Positions 3,157-17,978 of a stretch of DNA of 20,182 bases are shown piece after piece. The position numbers and the translations under genes were made by a program. Each line of letters begins with the position of its first letter. Position 1 is the first letter of the stretch. The stretch comes from a virus. The notes below the pieces were generated by a model, which was given only the letters and a program-made list of their open reading frames with translations, was not told where the DNA came from and ran no database searches. Where the stretch lies: IMG/VR virus record IMGVR_UViG_3300032246_001034, positions 1-20,182 of that record. One strand, written 5' to 3'.

Positions 3157-3299
3157 TTTGTAGCAATAAGATAAGCACCATAATTGGCAAAACAATAGCC
3201 AGCATACATACAAGCCAGCCCTAAATCACCTTTAAATAACTGTTCAACAGCGATGTAAAAGTAGATTAAACCAGTAATAATTATTAAAAAGGAACTCAT
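3153..3299 (-). CDS. small membrane protein, 48 aa
   Basis: Read directly: ATG at 3299, TGA at 3153. The N-terminal hydrophobic helix (about residues 3-17, FLIIITGLIYFYIAV) is followed by a polar turn (EQLFKGD) and a second hydrophobic stretch (LGLACMYAGYCFANYGAYLIA, shown as residues 26-46), giving a likely two-pass protein with both ends on the same side. The KGD turn and the GYxxANxG pattern resemble a small membrane protein common in aquatic phages, of unknown function. The start shares a base with the stop of the 24-aa peptide gene, and the stop overlaps the nuclease start, so it is coupled on both sides. Confidence 0.75.
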   Translation of the reverse strand: MSSFLIIITGLIYFYIAVEQLFKGDLGLACMYAGYCFANYGAYLIATK

Positions 3300-3373
3300 T
3301 AAAAATCAATCCATATAGAAAAGACCACGATTGCGAGAATAACGCAACCAAAATAGTAAGGTAAATCCCCCAT
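3299..3373 (-). CDS. 24-aa single-pass membrane peptide
   Basis: Read directly: ATG at 3373 directly abuts the TAA of the upstream gene and is preceded by AAAGGG, a good ribosome-binding site lying in that gene's last codons. The peptide begins MGDLPYYFG, then has one hydrophobic helix (VILAIVVFSIW) and ends IDF. The TAA shares a base with the next ATG. The ribosome-binding site, the hydrophobic helix and the seamless joins on both sides support translation. Function is unknown. Confidence 0.6.
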   Translation of the reverse strand: MGDLPYYFGCVILAIVVFSIWIDF

Positions 3374-3706: not shown

Positions 3707-3864
3707 AATCTTGTTATTTCATCCTGTAGTTTAATTGCACCTTCAGCACCTCTTTTTTCCCAAACTAATGCCAGTTGCTTCCTTCTTTTCTGTAAAGACC
3801 AGCTTAACAGTTCTCTTGCTTCACATTCTAATCGCCATGCTTCTGATTTCTTAAATTCAGACAT
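3646..3864 (-). CDS. small conserved phage protein, DUF7696-like
   Basis: A 72-aa protein whose core (SEAWRLECEARELLSWSL, then KRRKQLALVWEKRGAEGA, then LQDEITRLWK) resembles a short phage family annotated, as I recall, as DUF7696: a charged helical protein with the WRxECEAR opening. The last 18 or so residues extend past the usual end of that family and are read from sequence that also encodes the next gene, a long out-of-frame overlap. It also overlaps the upstream nuclease-like gene by 37 bases. Function is unknown. Confidence 0.7.
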   Translation of the reverse strand: MSEFKKSEAWRLECEARELLSWSLQKRRKQLALVWEKRGAEGAIKLQDEITRLWKIQKNQQTKQDDLFMRNQ

Positions 3865-4277
3865 CTGTAAGTTACTCCATCATCCCATCTTTGATCTACT
3901 GCTTTTTCATACAGCCTTATGATTTGGTCTGGGTATTTCAATATAGGGTTTTGACCCTCAAAACAAAAAGCATAAATCAATGGTGCTTTTGGCGAGTGAT
4001 ACCATTCTAAAAACAAAGGCAATAAATCTATTTCTTTCTTTTTAAAATTGTCTGTGCCTTTTACTTGCACTACATAGCTATTGTCCAAAGAATGCACTAC
4101 ATAATCTGGTAAATTTCTAATTAAATGGTTTAAATTGTAAAAGTTTGGCACTTCGGTTTTATGTTCATTAAACCCAATCCTATTAAACTTATACCCTTTA
4201 GAATTGCAATAGGCTTCAAACAGGATTTCTCCTTTGTTTGGCTCTTTTAGGCGATCAGCAAAATTAGGTATGTTCAT
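3828..4277 (-). CDS. PD-(D/E)XK-like nuclease, putative
   Basis: A 149-aa protein that I judge to be a restriction-endonuclease-fold nuclease. Helix 1 carries E17 (KGEILFEAYCNSKGYKF), followed by P57-D58 and then V70-Q71-V72-K73 in SYVVQVKGTDNF. This is the PD...(D/E/Q)xK signature on two neighbouring strands, with Gln in place of the usual acid as in several resolvase- and Vsr-related groups. A C-terminal half rich in aromatic residues follows. Possible roles are Holliday-junction resolution or nicking. The start overlaps the preceding 54-aa gene by 14 bases. Fold assignment is by motif only. Confidence 0.6.
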   Translation of the reverse strand: MNIPNFADRLKEPNKGEILFEAYCNSKGYKFNRIGFNEHKTEVPNFYNLNHLIRNLPDYVVHSLDNSYVVQVKGTDNFKKKEIDLLPLFLEWYHSPKAPLIYAFCFEGQNPILKYPDQIIRLYEKAVDQRWDDGVTYRCLNLRNQKHGD

Positions 4278-4428
4278 TTTTAGCCTGTTCTATAGCTTTT
4301 TCTAAGATTGCAATAAATCCATATTGGAACATCATCTTCATAAATTCTGGTGAACAATCCAATTCAATGTCTGCTGAACCATCTGGGTTCTCTACTAAAC
4401 TAACAACTGTAAATGATGGGGTTGTCAT
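4264..4428 (-). CDS. small conserved phage protein, 54 aa
   Basis: Read directly: ATG at 4428 overlaps the glycosyltransferase stop as ATGA, and TAA lies at 4264. The N-terminal half is beta-like (PSFTVVSLVENPDGSADIELDC) and the C-terminal half is one amphipathic helix (SPEFMKMMFQYGFIAILEKA) with a polar tail. The pattern ENPDGSAxxxxD followed by a helix recalls a small phage protein found in replication operons, with no known function. It fills exactly the gap between two certain genes, which supports it. Confidence 0.75.
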   Translation of the reverse strand: MTTPSFTVVSLVENPDGSADIELDCSPEFMKMMFQYGFIAILEKAIEQAKNEHT

Positions 4429-8334: not shown

Positions 8335-8402
8335 ATCCAATCAAATCACAATTTTGGTATATCTTACAAAGAGAAATTGCAAACAGAAAGAATAAGAAAT
8401 GA
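8331..8402 (+). CDS. 23-aa basic micropeptide
   Basis: Read directly: MNPIKSQFWYILQREIANRK, then NKK, ending in TGA at 8400-8402. It is short and strongly basic with an aromatic centre (FWY), like an amphipathic nucleic-acid- or membrane-surface-binding helix. Both ends overlap neighbours by ATGA, so ribosomes finishing the 36-aa gene could run through it into the Sak3 gene. It may act mainly as a coupling bridge for the annealing protein. Confidence 0.55.
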   Translation: MNPIKSQFWYILQREIANRKNKK

Positions 8403-8947
8403 ACAAATACAAAGAACTCAGAACAATAGATGTATCTAATGAAATAAAAAAGATGGGTCGATTTAATTATTTGCCTTGGGTATATTCTGTTGATACATTG
8501 TTACAACATGACCCACAAGCCAACTGGACTTATGGTGAACCACAAATTTACAATGGCACAATGATGGTTAATTGTTCTGTTACTGCATTTGGCAAAACCA
8601 TGACTGAGTATTTGCCAGTTAAAGATAACAATAACAAAGCGATCACCAACCCAACTGCAATGGCTATAAATAATGCACAGAAAAGGGTTTTGGTTAAGTG
8701 CATCGCAATATGCACAGGCATTGGTTTATCATTGTATGCTGGGGATGAATTTTGGGATGAACCAGAAGAATCAATAGTTGATAAAGTTAATGCAATGTTA
8801 GAATCAGCTAAAACCCCAGAAGAATTAATAAAAGTATTTGGTGAAAATTGGGCAAAATTAAAAGGTAAAAAACAGCAAGATGAAGTTAAGCCAGTTTATG
8901 AAAAGCGAAAGGCAGAACTAAATGCGACTAGCCCAAGAGCAACCTGA
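8399..8947 (+). CDS. Sak3-type ssDNA annealing protein (DUF1071)
   Basis: A 182-aa protein of the DUF1071/Sak3 group, single-strand annealing proteins in the Rad52-like superfamily that pair complementary strands during phage recombination. Visible features: Y24-L-P-W27 near the start, a segment with HDPQANWTY, then G-x-T-M-T-E-Y-L-P-V-K-D-N-N-N-K, then NPTAMAINNAQKRVLVKCIA and G-L-S-L-Y-A-G-D-E. These are the core blocks of the family. The tail is acidic/basic mixed and likely flexible. The YqaJ-type exonuclease and SSB-like protein downstream complete a Red-like set. Coupled by ATGA upstream; it overlaps the zinc-ribbon gene by 26 bases. Confidence 0.85.
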   Translation: MNKYKELRTIDVSNEIKKMGRFNYLPWVYSVDTLLQHDPQANWTYGEPQIYNGTMMVNCSVTAFGKTMTEYLPVKDNNNKAITNPTAMAINNAQKRVLVKCIAICTGIGLSLYAGDEFWDEPEESIVDKVNAMLESAKTPEELIKVFGENWAKLKGKKQQDEVKPVYEKRKAELNATSPRAT

Positions 8948-9874: not shown

Positions 9875-10029
9875 ATACCCAATGTGCTATCAAGAACTGT
9901 CATTTATTTTGCTTAAAAAGCGATTGGGAATCAGCAAGTAAAGCGGCAGAAGCAATATCAATATATGCAAAACAACTACAGGATACGATAAAAACTTATG
10001 ACAACATTCACAACAGAAGATCGGCTTAG
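9841..10029 (+). CDS. hypothetical protein, 62 aa
   Basis: A 62-aa helical protein (YLDTQCAIKNCHLFCLKSDW, then ESASKAAEAISIYAKQLQDT). Helix 1 carries C15, C20 and C24 but in no recognised metal-binding spacing. A helical hairpin that oligomerises is likely. It overlaps the gene before by 34 bases and the exonuclease gene after by 32, both in different frames. The long overlap with the exonuclease suggests either coupling or that the exonuclease starts later. No function is known. Confidence 0.66.
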   Translation: MQTKDYSELYLDTQCAIKNCHLFCLKSDWESASKAAEAISIYAKQLQDTIKTYDNIHNRRSA

Positions 10030-10678
10030 TGCCATAGAACCAATCCCTTTTGCTGGGTTGGTCGATTTAGAGATTAAACAGGGTACTGAGGAATGGCATC
10101 AGATTAGGCTTGGCAAAGTAACAGCCAGTAGGGTCGCTGATGTCATGTCCAAGGTTAAAACTGGGGAATCTGCTAGTCGAAAGAACTATAAGATGGATTT
10201 GGTGGTAGAAAGGCTTACAAACAGCCCTACAAGCAGTTTTAGCAGTCCAGCTATGCAATGGGGTACAGAAACAGAACCATTGGCTAGGATGGCTTATGAA
10301 GCCAAATTTGGGCTATTTGTAGATCAGGTTGCTTTTTGCAACCATCCTACTATCAAAAACTTTGGTTGTAGCCCAGATGGAGTGGTTGGGGATGGGCTTA
10401 TAGAAATTAAATGCCCAAATACTACTACCCATATTGAGTATTTAATGGGGGGTATTCCCCCAGCAAAGTATGTCCCACAAATGCAGACACAAATGGCTTG
10501 CACAGGGGCTAGATGGTGCGATTTTGTATCATTTGACCCTAGACTGCCATCTGAGTTGCAATTGATTGTAATTCGCCTGAATAGGGATGATGCATATATT
10601 CAGGAAATAGAAACAGAAGTTAAGCAGTTTTTAGAAGAAGTTGAACAAATTTACTCACAATTGAAAGCGAGAATGTAA
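9998..10678 (+). CDS. YqaJ-type viral recombinase (lambda-exonuclease family)
   Basis: A 226-aa 5'-3' exonuclease of the YqaJ/lambda-exonuclease branch of PD-(D/E)XK nucleases, which resects double-stranded ends to give the single strand bound by the annealing protein. Motifs in order: KQGTEEWHQIRLGKVTASR (27-45), W-G-T-E-T-E-P-L-A (88-96), C124-S-P-D127-G, E136-I-K138 as the catalytic pair, then V-P-Q-M-Q-T-Q-M-A-C (159-168). All catalytic positions are present and length is normal, so it looks functional. It partners with the upstream Sak3 gene and the following SSB-like gene. The start overlaps a neighbouring gene by 32 bases; the true start could be slightly later. Confidence 0.88.
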   Translation: MTTFTTEDRLSAIEPIPFAGLVDLEIKQGTEEWHQIRLGKVTASRVADVMSKVKTGESASRKNYKMDLVVERLTNSPTSSFSSPAMQWGTETEPLARMAYEAKFGLFVDQVAFCNHPTIKNFGCSPDGVVGDGLIEIKCPNTTTHIEYLMGGIPPAKYVPQMQTQMACTGARWCDFVSFDPRLPSELQLIVIRLNRDDAYIQEIETEVKQFLEEVEQIYSQLKARM

Positions 10679-10920
10679 TGGGCATTAAATATGATTGTAT
10701 TGTTAAGAATGGCACTTATACTGATAAAACTGGGGCTGAAAAGAACCGGTGGCAAAAGATTGGTGTTTGTGTAGAAACCAAACAAGGTGGTCTGGCAGTT
10801 AAGCTAGAAACTATCCCTGTAACTTGGGATGGTTGGATTTCTTTAGCAGAGCCAAAGCCAAGGGAAAATGCTCCACAAGCTGTAGCACTTAGTGGTATAG
10901 AAGAAGATATACCCTTTTAA
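10678..10920 (+). CDS. SSB-like single-strand DNA-binding protein
   Basis: An 80-aa protein with an OB-fold-like beta pattern (MGIKYDCIVKNGTYTDKTGA, then K-N-R-W-Q-K-I-G-V-C-V) and a proline/alanine linker leading to an acidic, hydrophobic tip, IEEDIPF. Such a D-I-P-F end is the docking tail of bacterial SSB proteins, which recruit repair partners. It is shorter than cellular SSB but like several phage forms. It shares one base with the exonuclease stop (TAATG) and closes the recombination module (annealing protein, exonuclease, SSB). The structured junction at 10933-10996 begins 13 bases after its stop. Confidence 0.7.
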   Translation: MGIKYDCIVKNGTYTDKTGAEKNRWQKIGVCVETKQGGLAVKLETIPVTWDGWISLAEPKPRENAPQAVALSGIEEDIPF

Positions 10921-10987
10921 TGAAAAATAGCAGATAGGACTATTACTTCACGATTCTGCGACAGCCCAGAATCTTCCTATCAGGCTG
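10921..10987. repeat. interlocking inverted repeats, possible RNA pseudoknot
   Basis: The junction between the convergent SSB and lysozyme genes has three perfect 7-bp complementary pairs: GATAGGA (10933-10939) with TCCTATC (10975-10981); GATTCTG (10952-10958) with CAGAATC (10967-10973); and GACAGCC (10960-10966), lying in the loop of the second stem, with GGCTGTC (10983-10989). They are mutually compatible as a pseudoknot. A fourth pair, GAATCTT (10969-10975) with AAGATTC (10990-10996), competes. On the minus strand the element is followed by a T-run near 10929, which suits termination of the lysis operon. Confidence 0.65.
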
Positions 10988-11464
10988 TCAAGATTCAAAC
11001 AATGCTCTTTCATCATTTCTTCGGTTTTGCAAACCTTTAAGAATCTTGCCACCAGCCATGATGTATTTTAAGAATTCCATTGATGCCCCTTTAAAATCTT
11101 CTCGATTAACCTTTTGACGCAAGGTTGATCTTTGTAATGTCCCCAGACCAACATTAAAGCTAAAAGACACCAAAGCATCGAACTGACCTTGTGTGAGTTG
11201 AACAGGACAGTATTGCTCAACACCTCTTTCAAACCTAGCCAAATCTGTTCTAAGAATATCATCGACTTCTTCCATGCTAAATGTTCTATTATCTTCTGAT
11301 CTTAATGGCACAAGCATTCTATCATCCATTTTTAGTTTTGCCTGTTCTGGATAAAGCACATGACCAACACCAATTGTCCAAAGATTAGCTGGACATCGAT
11401 AGGCTTTTTGTCTTACACCTTCATGGTGTTTAATCATGTTTATTGCTTTAGAAGATACTTTCAT
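10988..11464 (-). CDS. endolysin, GH24 lysozyme
   Basis: A 158-aa phage-type lysozyme that cuts the MurNAc-GlcNAc bond of peptidoglycan. The triad region is visible: E15 in HHEGVRQKAYR, C24 in YRCPANLW, T30 in WTIGVGH. The Glu-Cys-Thr spacing (9 and 6 residues) equals T4 lysozyme's Glu-Asp-Thr, with Cys replacing Asp as in P1 Lyz. Downstream, LTQGQFDALVSFSFNVGLG and LQNRRNDERALF are standard family blocks. The N-terminus has no signal or SAR anchor, so export must come from the holin directly upstream, with which it overlaps by ATGA. The stop codon lies in the pseudoknot-like junction. Confidence 0.93.
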   Translation of the reverse strand: MKVSSKAINMIKHHEGVRQKAYRCPANLWTIGVGHVLYPEQAKLKMDDRMLVPLRSEDNRTFSMEEVDDILRTDLARFERGVEQYCPVQLTQGQFDALVSFSFNVGLGTLQRSTLRQKVNREDFKGASMEFLKYIMAGGKILKGLQNRRNDERALFES

Positions 11465-14672: not shown

Positions 14673-17600
14673 TTAAACAATTACCCATGCACTTCCTGTA
14701 TCTACTGATACTGTAACACCAGTATTAATGGTTATTGGTCCGGCAGATAATCCATTAGTTCCAGCCGCAATAGTTTGGTTAGATGAAATGGTAGTGCTAT
14801 TGTAATAAATACCAGTTCCATACATTTGACTTGTGCCAGTTGCACCACTAAAACCTGACCAGCCAGATATGCCACTACCAGAATAACCACTATAACCACT
14901 TATACCAGAAGCACCATTTGTACCATTTGTACCATTAGTACCAGAGTATCCACTAAAACCACTTGTGCCTGTTGCTCCACTATATCCTGAATAACCACTA
15001 AATCCTGAAATTCCTGATTGACCAGCAATATCAAAAGTCCAAGATGCAAAAGTTCCTGAACCACCAACCAAATCTACATTGACTGTAAGAGTTGTAGTTG
15101 TATAAGCAGTAATCTGACCTTCCATAAAGTTAGTAGTATTGTTAATGCGAACTCTCATGCCTACTACATAAGCATTAGTGCCTTGTGATTGATTTACTGT
15201 AAAGGCTTTAGAACCAGTACCAATTAAAAAAGAAGTAGTAGAAGTTAAATTAGCATAACCTAATCCAGAATATCCAGAATAACCAGAAATTCCACTAAAA
15301 CCACTTGTGCCTACAGCACCAGAATATCCTGAAATACCAGATGCACCATTAGCACCACTATATCCACTAAACCCTGATGTGCCTACTGCACCAGAATAAC
15401 CTGAGAATCCACTTATGCCTTGTGAGCCATTTGTGCCACTAATACCAGAAAATCCTGATAATCCTGATGCTCCAGTTGCACCACTAAACCCAGAATAGCC
15501 TGAAATTCCTGATGCTCCATTAGTTCCATTAGTGCCACTATAACCACTAAAGCCTGATGTGCCTTGTGCTCCAGAGTAACCAGAAAAACCACTTGTGCCA
15601 ATTGCACCACTATAGCCAGAGTAACCACTAACTCCTGATCCTGAATAACCAGAATAGCCTGATACACCACTTCCACTATAACCACTTATTCCAGACCAGC
15701 CACTAATGCCAGAGAATCCACTATAGCCAGAAATTCCACTATACCCTGATTGGGTATACATCACTTGTGTTGCAGTAAGAATGACTGATGGAGTTCTAGG
15801 ATAAGAGCTAGTTGCCGCTATTGTTTCAATAGTTACATTTGTGTTTGCGGTCTGCCAATAAAGTTGGAATACATCATTAGCCGCAACATTAAGCACATAA
15901 TTTACAGTCAATACTTCAGAAGAAAATGATGAACCTTGTTTATCTGGCACATCATAATGAGTATTACTATCTGCCAAATCAGAACCATTCTTACGCAACC
16001 AAACTTGTGTATTGCCTAATGCGGTGCTTCTATTTGTAAATTGAATTGAGTAAGTAATGCTAAATGTTCCAGCAACATTAAATCGCCATTGATTAGCAGA
16101 AATTAATACAACATTATTGCTTCCATCTGTTGTATTTAAATTAATTGCAGTTGGAGTATTTGCAGTTGCAGTTTGATTTGTGGTGTCATAGAAAGAACCA
16201 TAAGCACCTACAGTTCCACCTAGACCAGCCACTCCTGAATAACCACTATAGCCACTATAACCAGATTGACCTACTGCACCAGAGTAGCCTGAGTAACCAC
16301 TAATACCAGAACCAGAATAACCAGAATAACCAGATACTCCACTTCCTGAATATCCACTTATGCCACTATAGCCACTAAAGCCTGATTGACCATTTGTGCC
16401 TGAGATTCCTGAGAACCCACTAAATCCTGAGATTCCACTTGCACCAGAATATCCACTTACACCAGAACCAGAATAACCTGAATAGCCACTAATTCCAGAG
16501 TATCCTGAGAAACCACTTACCCCTGATCCTGAATAGCCTGAGAAGCCACTAAAACCACTTACACCACTTCCAGAGTAGCCAGATATACCTGAGTAGCCAC
16601 TATATCCAGATTCGCCACTAAAGCCTGAAAAACCACTTTGCCCTGAATAACCAGATTCACCAGACCATCCTGATATGCCACTATCTCCAGAAAAACCTGA
16701 GATACCTGAATCGCCACTATAGCCTGAAATACCTGAATCACCAGAGTATCCAGAAATTCCTGAAAAGCCACTATATCCTGATATACCAGAATCACCAGAC
16801 CAACCAGAAATACCACTATCACCAGAATACCCAGAAAATCCACTTATGCCAGAATCTCCACTAAACCCTGAAATACCTGAATCACCTGAAAATCCTGAGA
16901 AACCACTAATACCACTATCACCAGAATAACCACTAAAACCTGATTGACCTTGTGGAACAAATAAAGCCCAGTCTGCGTTTGTGGTTGGTGGATTATCAAA
17001 AGGTATTATAGATGCTAGTGCAATCCAAGTTTGATTCGCATAAGCAACTATTGAATTTTGAATATAAGAAACTTCAATTACCCAACTACCTTGCCAATAT
17101 AAACCTATACCTGAATAACCAGAATAACCACTATCACCTGACCAACCAGATATTCCTGAATCACCTGAGTAACCAGAATAGCCTGAAATTCCACTATCGC
17201 CTGACCATCCAGAAATTCCACTATCGCCACTAAATCCAGAGTAACCACTTATTCCTGAATCGCCTGAGTAACCTGAAATGCCAGAATCTCCAGAGAATCC
17301 TGAATAGCCACTATCGCCTGAGTAACCAGAAAAACCACTTATACCTGAATCACCAGAATATCCAGAGAAACCAGAAATACCACTTTGACCAGCCGGACCA
17401 ACTATCTGCCCAACATCAGTCCAAGTAAGTCCTGTCCATACATATAGATCGCCATTAGATGAAACAATATAAGCATCATTTAAATTGCCAGTTAAAGGCA
17501 AATCTAAAGGTGTTGGTACTGTACCAATAATATTAATTGATGTACCTTGCTGACCACTATATCCAGAAAAGCCACTATAGCCACTTATGCCAGAATCGCC

Positions 17601-17978
17601 TGAATAACCAGATTGTCCATCTTGACCAGAATACCCAGAATATCCACTTTCGCCTAATGATTCTCCTGAGTAGCCACTAAAGCCACTAAAACCACTTATG
17701 CCACTTCCAGAATAACCAGATATACCAGACTGTCCATTTTGACCTGAAAAGCCACTATAGCCACTATAGCCAGAATAACCAGAACCACCAATAACACCAT
17801 CTTGCCCTGAAAAACCACTATATCCTGATTGACCAGATGCTCCAGAGTAGCCTGAGTATCCAGATACACCTTGTGATCCTTGAACACCCTTATCAACAGT
17901 AAGAGTAATTTGATTGCCTACAGCTACATCAACATTGACTGTATCGCCATTAGCATTGGTAACTATTAATTCTGCCAT
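14673..17978 (-). CDS. giant Gly-X-Ser repeat tail fibre
   Basis: A 1101-aa virion fibre or adhesin. Most of residues 38-1047 are triplets Gly-(Tyr/Phe/Ile/Trp or Asp/Val/Ala)-Ser, interrupted by globular inserts at about 143-197 (NDAYIVSSNGDLYVW, a beta module), 291-342 (Y-W-Q-G-S-W, NSIVAYANQTWIAL, resembling a CBM5/12-type sugar-binding module), 588-738 (a C1q/TNF-like beta jelly roll) and 903-985 (beta-rich). It ends in a 50-residue C-terminal beta module. The N-terminus (MAELIVTNANGDTVNVDV) likely binds the tail. Few prolines occur, so a classic collagen helix is doubtful; a polyglycine-II-like bundle is possible. Good AAGGAA ribosome-binding site. The sugar-binding-like inserts suggest receptor recognition. 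Confidence 0.88.
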   Translation of the reverse strand: MAELIVTNANGDTVNVDVAVGNQITLTVDKGVQGSQGVSGYSGYSGASGQSGYSGFSGQDGVIGGSGYSGYSGYSGFSGQNGQSGISGYSGSGISGFSGFSGYSGESLGESGYSGYSGQDGQSGYSGDSGISGYSGFSGYSGQQGTSINIIGTVPTPLDLPLTGNLNDAYIVSSNGDLYVWTGLTWTDVGQIVGPAGQSGISGFSGYSGDSGISGFSGYSGDSGYSGFSGDSGISGYSGDSGISGYSGFSGDSGISGWSGDSGISGYSGYSGDSGISGWSGDSGYSGYSGIGLYWQGSWVIEVSYIQNSIVAYANQTWIALASIIPFDNPPTTNADWALFVPQGQSGFSGYSGDSGISGFSGFSGDSGISGFSGDSGISGFSGYSGDSGISGWSGDSGISGYSGFSGISGYSGDSGISGYSGDSGISGFSGDSGISGWSGESGYSGQSGFSGFSGESGYSGYSGISGYSGSGVSGFSGFSGYSGSGVSGFSGYSGISGYSGYSGSGVSGYSGASGISGFSGFSGISGTNGQSGFSGYSGISGYSGSGVSGYSGYSGSGISGYSGYSGAVGQSGYSGYSGYSGVAGLGGTVGAYGSFYDTTNQTATANTPTAINLNTTDGSNNVVLISANQWRFNVAGTFSITYSIQFTNRSTALGNTQVWLRKNGSDLADSNTHYDVPDKQGSSFSSEVLTVNYVLNVAANDVFQLYWQTANTNVTIETIAATSSYPRTPSVILTATQVMYTQSGYSGISGYSGFSGISGWSGISGYSGSGVSGYSGYSGSGVSGYSGYSGAIGTSGFSGYSGAQGTSGFSGYSGTNGTNGASGISGYSGFSGATGASGLSGFSGISGTNGSQGISGFSGYSGAVGTSGFSGYSGANGASGISGYSGAVGTSGFSGISGYSGYSGLGYANLTSTTSFLIGTGSKAFTVNQSQGTNAYVVGMRVRINNTTNFMEGQITAYTTTTLTVNVDLVGGSGTFASWTFDIAGQSGISGFSGYSGYSGATGTSGFSGYSGTNGTNGTNGASGISGYSGYSGSGISGWSGFSGATGTSQMYGTGIYYNSTTISSNQTIAAGTNGLSAGPITINTGVTVSVDTGSAWVIV
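14840..17900 (-). repeat. degenerate 9-bp tandem repeat encoding Gly-X-Ser
   Basis: About 3 kb of imperfect 9-bp units. The minus strand reads GGN-(TAT/TTT/ATA/GAT)-(TCN or AGY). Serine is written with both the TCN and AGY families (for example AGTGGTTATAGTGG beside GGTTATTCTGG), so protein repeats are tight while the DNA is scrambled. Non-repeat inserts break it at about 17390-17550, 16955-17107, 15765-16215 and 15025-15270. Confidence 0.85.

Follow-up and report, generated by a model that had tools for sequence, protein, structure and literature searches.

A candidate three-stem pseudoknot RNA at the border of the recombination and lysis modules of uncultured phages

What is encoded in the short gap between the recombination operon and the convergent lysozyme gene of this phage genome, where a first-pass annotation made from the letters alone noticed interlocking stems and proposed an RNA pseudoknot switch? 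The window analyzed here is the whole of the 20,182-base IMG/VR virus record IMGVR_UViG_3300032246_001034 (positions 1 to 20,182), in which the genes that matter for this question are the following.

8399-8947, + strand: Sak-type single-strand annealing protein (PF06378, E 1.1e-23)
9998-10678, + strand: YqaJ-family exonuclease (PF09588, E 9e-32)
10678-10920, + strand: small SSB-like protein of 80 aa with a DIPF tail, the last gene of the recombination operon
10988-11464, - strand: convergent GH24 phage lysozyme (PF00959, E 9.6e-39)

A Pfam search with the SSB-like protein returned no match. The protein has an acidic DIPF tail and a weak match to phrog_18187, a phrog of unknown function, and represents a compact phage SSB family that is absent from the family libraries searched. 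Elsewhere in the window, the other convergent junction carries a conventional hairpin-plus-T terminator (2582-2604), unlike the pseudoknot junction, and positions 14673-17978 of the minus strand encode a 1101-aa tail-fiber-like protein of SGYSGFSG repeats with a collagen-like G-x-y pattern.

The three perfect 7-bp complements described by the first-pass annotation, here called stems A, B and C, are indeed present, as is a fourth 7-bp pair (10969-10975 with 10990-10996). No base separates the inner strands, the 5′ strand of C and the 3′ strand of B abutting at 10966/10967. The segments are listed below, where L numbers denote related contigs.

10928-10932, + strand: 5′ flank TAGCA, kept in the window clade and L300 (CAAGA in L141, GGAGA in L301)
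10933-10939, + strand: 5′ strand of stem A (P1), GATAGGA; 6 bp always paired, the seventh variable
10940-10951, + strand: asymmetric internal loop J1 between stems A and B, with a core ACUUCAC (10945-10951) that is nearly invariant in the alignments
10952-10958, + strand: 5′ strand of stem B (P2), GATTCTG; compensatory change in 4 of 7 pairs
10959, + strand: loop base before stem C (1-3 nt in relatives)
10960-10966, + strand: 5′ strand of pseudoknot stem C, GACAGCC, within the stem B loop; compensatory change in 3 of 7 pairs
10967-10973, + strand: 3′ strand of stem B, CAGAATC
10975-10981, + strand: 3′ strand of stem A, TCCTATC; compensatory change in 2 of 7 stem A pairs
10982, + strand: single invariant A between stems A and C (AA in L301)
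10983-10989, + strand: 3′ strand of stem C, GGCTGTC, overlapping the stop codon of the convergent lysozyme gene on the minus strand
10990-10996, + strand: 3′ half of the suggested fourth stem, taken to lie outside the element and conserved only in close lysozyme-bearing relatives

The argument that such 7-bp pairs are rare proved wrong, since the window holds 83 perfect pairs within about 70 nt, whereas dinucleotide shuffles average 94. Of 300 shuffled windows, 15 also contain an interlocked triple with this topology at some position. Comparison with shuffled sequence, suggested as a way to refute the stems, therefore gave a divided answer: the pair counts across the window are ordinary, whereas the local cluster of four stems in 80 nt is unusual (0.125 expected; one shuffle in 5000 has three or more). 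As such statistics could not settle the matter by themselves, the question was taken to the relatives.

A search with the SSB-like protein brought 33 viral contigs, and searches with patterns of the element returned the same genomes. Thirteen distinct close variants make up alignment A1, and the full set comprises 16 variants including the distant L141, L300 and L301. Outside the close clade are five distant loci with three distinct elements, as L301-L303 share a single element sequence; L299 is the L141 contig again. In A1, standard pairs occupy 96% of pair cells and four pairs show double changes, with every helix contributing, and the observed covariation values were reached by none of 500 shuffles. 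Across the 16 variants, compensatory double changes are found in 9 of 21 pairs (two in stem A, four in stem B and three in stem C), and the unpaired core, namely ACUUCAC and the single linker bases, is nearly fixed. Stem A, for example, becomes GATAGC/GCTATC in L012 and GATCG/CGATC in L141 and L300, and stem C becomes GACTGCC/GGCAGTC in L006 and L011. These last two variants break an upstream TAGC × GCUG pairing that appears in the minimum-energy fold, which we rejected; the same change is compensated by stem C.

The covariance model and search for compensatory changes that had been proposed as a check bore out the three stems. All three helices covary, and the model (R1) located L141 at 29.9 bits (E 8e-5). 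The last SSB-based scan added L300 at 24.6 bits and L301-L303 at 14.6 bits (E 0.6, not significant alone), in each case 3′ of ssb. Note that a second model, R2, scores the distant loci in a partly circular manner because L141, L300 and L301 are included in it. The stems of these loci are GATCGG/CCGATC (A), AACTG/CAGTT (B) and GCAGAC/GTCTGC (C) in L141; GATCGA/TCGATC, AAGG/CCTT and GCAGCC/GGCTGC in L300, where one extra C between stem C and stem B, omitted from the table of variants, leaves pairing unaffected; and GATAGG/CCTATC, TCTTG/CAAGA and GCTGCC/GGCAGC in L301. Between the window and its relatives the element is 93-97% identical, compared with about 80% for the upstream genes. The comparative data thus indicate that stems A, B and C are maintained by matching mutations while both adjacent genes change. 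Selection on the interlocking stems, as originally suggested, therefore holds for A, B and C but not for the fourth stem, which is intact in 2 of 16 variants (the window and L009). The two-fold switch built upon that stem is unsupported, because the stem is missing from nearly all relatives and overlaps lysozyme codons.

Searches also reached beyond these genomes. Pattern matches elsewhere in viral contigs and bacterial genomes were rejected, since all of the non-syntenic ones fail the covariance model or the structure; a Burkholderiales chromosomal match at 25.9 bits (L379) lacks stems B and C and was attributed to chance. No SSB relatives were found in 85k GTDB genomes with the patterns used, 399 Burkholderiales genomes gave a single weak SSB match (35%) and no element with model R2, and phage records compared by BLAST with the 68- and 81-nt elements gave only chance matches. 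The carriers are a family of uncultured, mostly freshwater bacterial viruses, and the element is, as far as seen, confined to phages known from metagenomes alone.

The family layout, from 5′ to 3′, consists of stem A (6-7 bp), a 10-14 nt loop with the near-invariant ACUUCAC, stem B (4-7 bp), 1-3 nt, the 5′ strand of C, zero or one base, the 3′ strand of B, 0-2 nt, the 3′ strand of A, one A (two in L301) and finally the 3′ strand of C. The strand order is therefore A B C B′ A′ C′ (1 2 3 2 1 3) on the plus strand and 1 2 3 1 3 2 on the minus strand. Helix energies are similar (-8.0, -6.9 and -11.4 kcal/mol), and nested folding programs display only A and B together or C. The comparison supports the three-stem fold well and makes the element a compact, structured RNA about 60 nt long. 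Stems A and B would form one hairpin that is split by the conserved 10-14 nt 5′ loop, and the apical loop of B would pair with the 7 nt just past the hairpin to create stem C. With only 1-2 bases linking A to C and B to A, end-on stacking of stem A beneath stem B is impossible while C forms; on geometric grounds, stem A would sit alongside stem B.

All seven wobble cells in the alignments are G-U on the plus strand, and none is the A-C that would signify a wobble on the minus strand. Hence the functional strand is probably plus, that of the recombination operon, although the evidence is moderate and not overwhelming because the wobbles reflect at least four or five independent changes. A structured terminator on the minus strand, which the first-pass annotation had considered, is disfavored by these wobbles. 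The T-run on which that proposal relied (CTATTTTTCAT) exists in the window but is not conserved in relatives, and a terminator scan calls no site there. The wobbles bear in the same way on the idea that the element works as folded single-stranded DNA, for instance at a site of replication or recombination, as G-T wobbles, used seven times, are better tolerated in RNA. Although the element always adjoins genes for handling single-stranded DNA, and a single-stranded DNA reading has been raised for the SSB-associated STAXI motif (PMC2864571), it always lies in the operon sense and outside the plus-strand reading frames, and we consider a DNA structure highly unlikely.

The setting of the element was then compared among the carriers. 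There is one element per genome in 13 records of 7-40 kb, and its position is constant, always downstream of sak-yqaJ-ssb. To the left, ssb is the direct neighbor in most relatives, and the remainder carry a 105-nt insert between ssb and the element (L006), an HNH gene that ends at the element edge (L004) or small ORFs (L032, L141 and L300-L303). To the right, the window clade has a convergent gene whose stop codon falls inside the last stem or the linker, in one of two frames. This gene encodes GH24 lysozyme in the window, a GH19-type endolysin (phrog_181) in L011 to L031, a spanin-like protein in L006 and endonuclease VII in L032. The knot is followed at 1-15 nt by the start of a same-strand gene in five relatives (L141 and L300-L303), and the lysis genes converge on this following gene with overlapping ends. 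The following gene in L141 encodes a wHTH protein (phrog_1123); those in L300 and in L301-L303 encode two unrelated proteins that, from reading their sequences, are presumably nuclease-like. DNA similarity between the window and its relatives ends at 10990-10995 where the right-hand gene differs and restarts at 10925 where the left side carries inserts. The element is thus the constant piece where the early recombination module borders on the lysis module. Because it stays while both sides swap, neither neighbor can be an obligatory partner. The description of the plus strand as the 3′ end of the recombination message accordingly fits the window clade but not L141 and L300-L303, where a same-strand gene follows.

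Several further observations were made at these junctions. HNH/endonuclease VII-like genes have inserted flush with the left edge of the element in L004 (3290-3733, + strand) and with its right edge in L032 (3448-3948, - strand). The final codons of the L032 gene (LTA) are supplied by the element and also close the endolysin genes beside it in other phages. The 105-nt insert of L006 (about 3241-3355; also in L007) has a perfect TTATATTTAA...TTAAATATAA inverted repeat plus GGGT/ACCC pairs and is possibly a second structured element. A gene of the window at 3828-4277 (- strand) resembles by eye the nuclease-like gene of L303 (3987-4418, + strand), which has a VKGT...NFK motif; the window homologue lies in a different operon without the element, whereas in L301-L303 the gene follows the element.

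The same gene arrangements allow a role as transcription terminator of either convergent operon to be assessed. The window element does sit at the end of a convergent operon, and the equivalent junction of the isolated Methylophilaceae phage P19250A holds a bidirectional intrinsic terminator. However, no U-tract follows the element on the plus strand and no conserved one on the minus strand. The terminator reading is unsupported, because a same-strand gene starts right after the element in L141 and L300-L303 and no terminator-like site is called at 10930-10996, and we regard it as very improbable.

More distant relatives of the SSB operon (L093-L101 and L336-L375) lack the element and have other downstream sequence. 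Since the element is missing from distant operons or is replaced by a terminator, its function must be dispensable or replaceable. In L333, L334 and L335, and also in L331, all without the element, another conserved leader (AACGGGGGAAAGTGGACTACCGACATGAGTACCCCACC in L334 and L335) precedes a wHTH gene after ssb; in L333-L335 this leader can form a different hairpin before the winged-helix gene and is possibly a replacement regulatory RNA. In P19250A (L376, KX815270), an unannotated 23-aa frame, MWTTPAATEMRFGFEVTMYVMNK, is located at about 4316-4387 between the SSB gene and the terminator. This frame looks like PqqA, the PQQ precursor peptide, which is plausible in a methylotroph phage.

A riboswitch or other 5′ UTR regulator of the next gene was rejected as the sole function, because the fold is conserved in a clade without that gene; no same-orientation downstream gene is conserved, as it is absent in the window clade and unrelated among L141, L300 and L301-L303. 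A broader version holds that the element is a cis-regulator that binds a ligand or protein at ACUUCAC, for example in autoregulation by SSB or another early protein, and thereby alters message stability or translation. Aptamers and protein-binding sites usually look like this, with a conserved unpaired core and variable helices, and the ssb gene is always close to the element. In L300-L303, moreover, the next start codon is 1-7 nt past stem C and the best Shine-Dalgarno-like bases are inside the knot. Nevertheless, the fold is kept throughout the window clade where there is no downstream gene, the downstream gene is of three unrelated kinds where present, and the adjacent gene is not SSB in L004, L006, L032, L141 and L300-L303. 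We therefore hold a cis-regulator of this sort to be possible but doubtful.

The first-pass annotation had seen no likeness to the known ribozymes and riboswitches with which it compared the stems by eye, and a search of Rfam 15 agreed, giving no credible match for the window element or for the distant L141, L300 and L301 copies. A literature search of incomplete coverage revealed no paper describing the motif. The leader of T4 gene 32 is likewise a pseudoknot tied to a phage SSB gene, but it is located upstream of gene 32 and is a simple H-type. REP sequences and lambda sib are intergenic structures that stabilize mRNA, and like the element they are operon-end structures altering mRNA life, but they are plain stem-loops.

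Among the closest structural counterparts is xrRNA_D. The element has the P1-L1-P2 hairpin of this type with the apical loop paired to the 3′ flank, and helices A, B and C covary; the strand order 1 2 3 2 1 3 is that of xrRNA_D, with helices as in the published description. These exoribonuclease-resistant RNAs of dianthoviruses and poleroviruses block Xrn1 and occur in 3′ UTRs or 5-20 nt upstream of a start codon (PMC6299227). Shared features are a two-helix hairpin with a conserved internal loop, an apical loop that pairs with the 3′ flank, conserved nucleotides immediately 5′ of the 3′ pseudoknot strand and the same two kinds of site. In contrast, xrRNA_D comes from plant RNA viruses and has another sequence, whereas the phage element has a 7-bp pseudoknot and a 10-14 nt 5′ loop of its own. 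No sequence match between the two was found in the Rfam 15 search, whose library may hold no xrRNA_D model.

STAXI (RF01728), a pseudoknot of RNA or single-stranded DNA associated with SSB in Enterobacteriales (PMC2864571), resembles the element in lying near SSB and DNA-handling genes. However, STAXI is a tandem array of simpler pseudoknots, whereas the phage element is a single three-stem knot; we found no tandem repetition (one copy per genome) and no match to the RF01728 model.

Could the element be a new ribozyme that cleaves itself and so trims the early transcript? A short conserved core in a double-pseudoknot fold is typical of small ribozymes, and either a 3′ UTR or an intergenic placement is tolerated. 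Phages do carry HDV-like theta ribozymes, which are found in Caudoviricetes, are mostly non-coding and lie in the sense of neighboring genes (PMC10879173). Like them, the element is a nested double-pseudoknot RNA of Caudoviricetes. However, its order A B C B′ A′ C′ differs from the P1 P2 P3 P3′ P1′ P2′ of HDV (1 2 3 3 1 2), and no tRNA was found near the element in the window. Pistol (PMC4604425) is nearer, as a hairpin loop pairs into the junction of another stem and the order is a circular permutation minus P3, but the element lacks J1/2 and P3 (by inspection, the flanks of the variants do not pair). Neither the CUGANGA/GAAA motifs nor the order 1 2 3 1 2 3 of hammerheads, permuted forms included (PMC10085705), were found. 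No Rfam ribozyme family, HDV-like, pistol and hammerhead included, matched at E up to 10 for the window or up to 5 for L141, L300 and L301. A ribozyme is, in our estimation, quite unlikely.

Our tentative interpretation, to which we assign a probability of roughly 0.38, is that the element founds a new phage RNA family that punctuates the recombination operon at its end, post-transcriptionally and in cis. Its structure, conservation, strand bias, single copy, constant position and replaceable neighbors are established. The element would be read from the plus strand within the early recombination transcript sak-yqaJ-ssb, where we infer that the knot acts in cis as a roadblock. It would halt RNA-degrading enzymes and so protect the upstream recombination mRNA; alternatively, the same roadblock may separate the recombination mRNA from the downstream variable gene or from RNA antisense to lysis genes. 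That the element can do without a downstream gene favors an effect on the transcript upstream or an autonomous one. The plant-virus class of like topology and site types (PMC6299227) provides a parallel for such a role, in which we place modest confidence. Against it, the knot and the ribosome-binding region of the following gene overlap in L300-L303, and a role as a 3′ guard alone leaves this unaccounted for. Furthermore, the conserved unpaired core suggests something more specific, because a simple hairpin would suffice as a block to 3′ exonucleases; such a core is compatible with protein or ligand binding or with catalysis.

A further reading is a trans-acting small RNA cut from the operon transcript, or one that serves as bait for an RNA-binding protein or nuclease of the host. 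Independence from the neighbors on both sides and the single copy would suit either. No promoter or processing signal was identified, however, and GTGAAGT, the 7-mer complement of the core, has no further copy in the window, so that we view this reading as a long shot.

Under the roadblock interpretation or the ribozyme alternative, the element might prove to be a new class of functional phage RNA, either the first phage exoribonuclease-resistant RNA of the xrRNA_D fold type or a new small self-cleaving ribozyme, an outcome we consider rather unlikely. If the element is indeed nuclease-resistant or self-cleaving, it would constitute such a class. In either event, it is a small structured RNA absent from Rfam, whose helices all covary and whose core is conserved. 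It persists at the border of recombination and lysis while the flanking genes swap, and it offers a test case for how phages may punctuate convergent operons without terminators.
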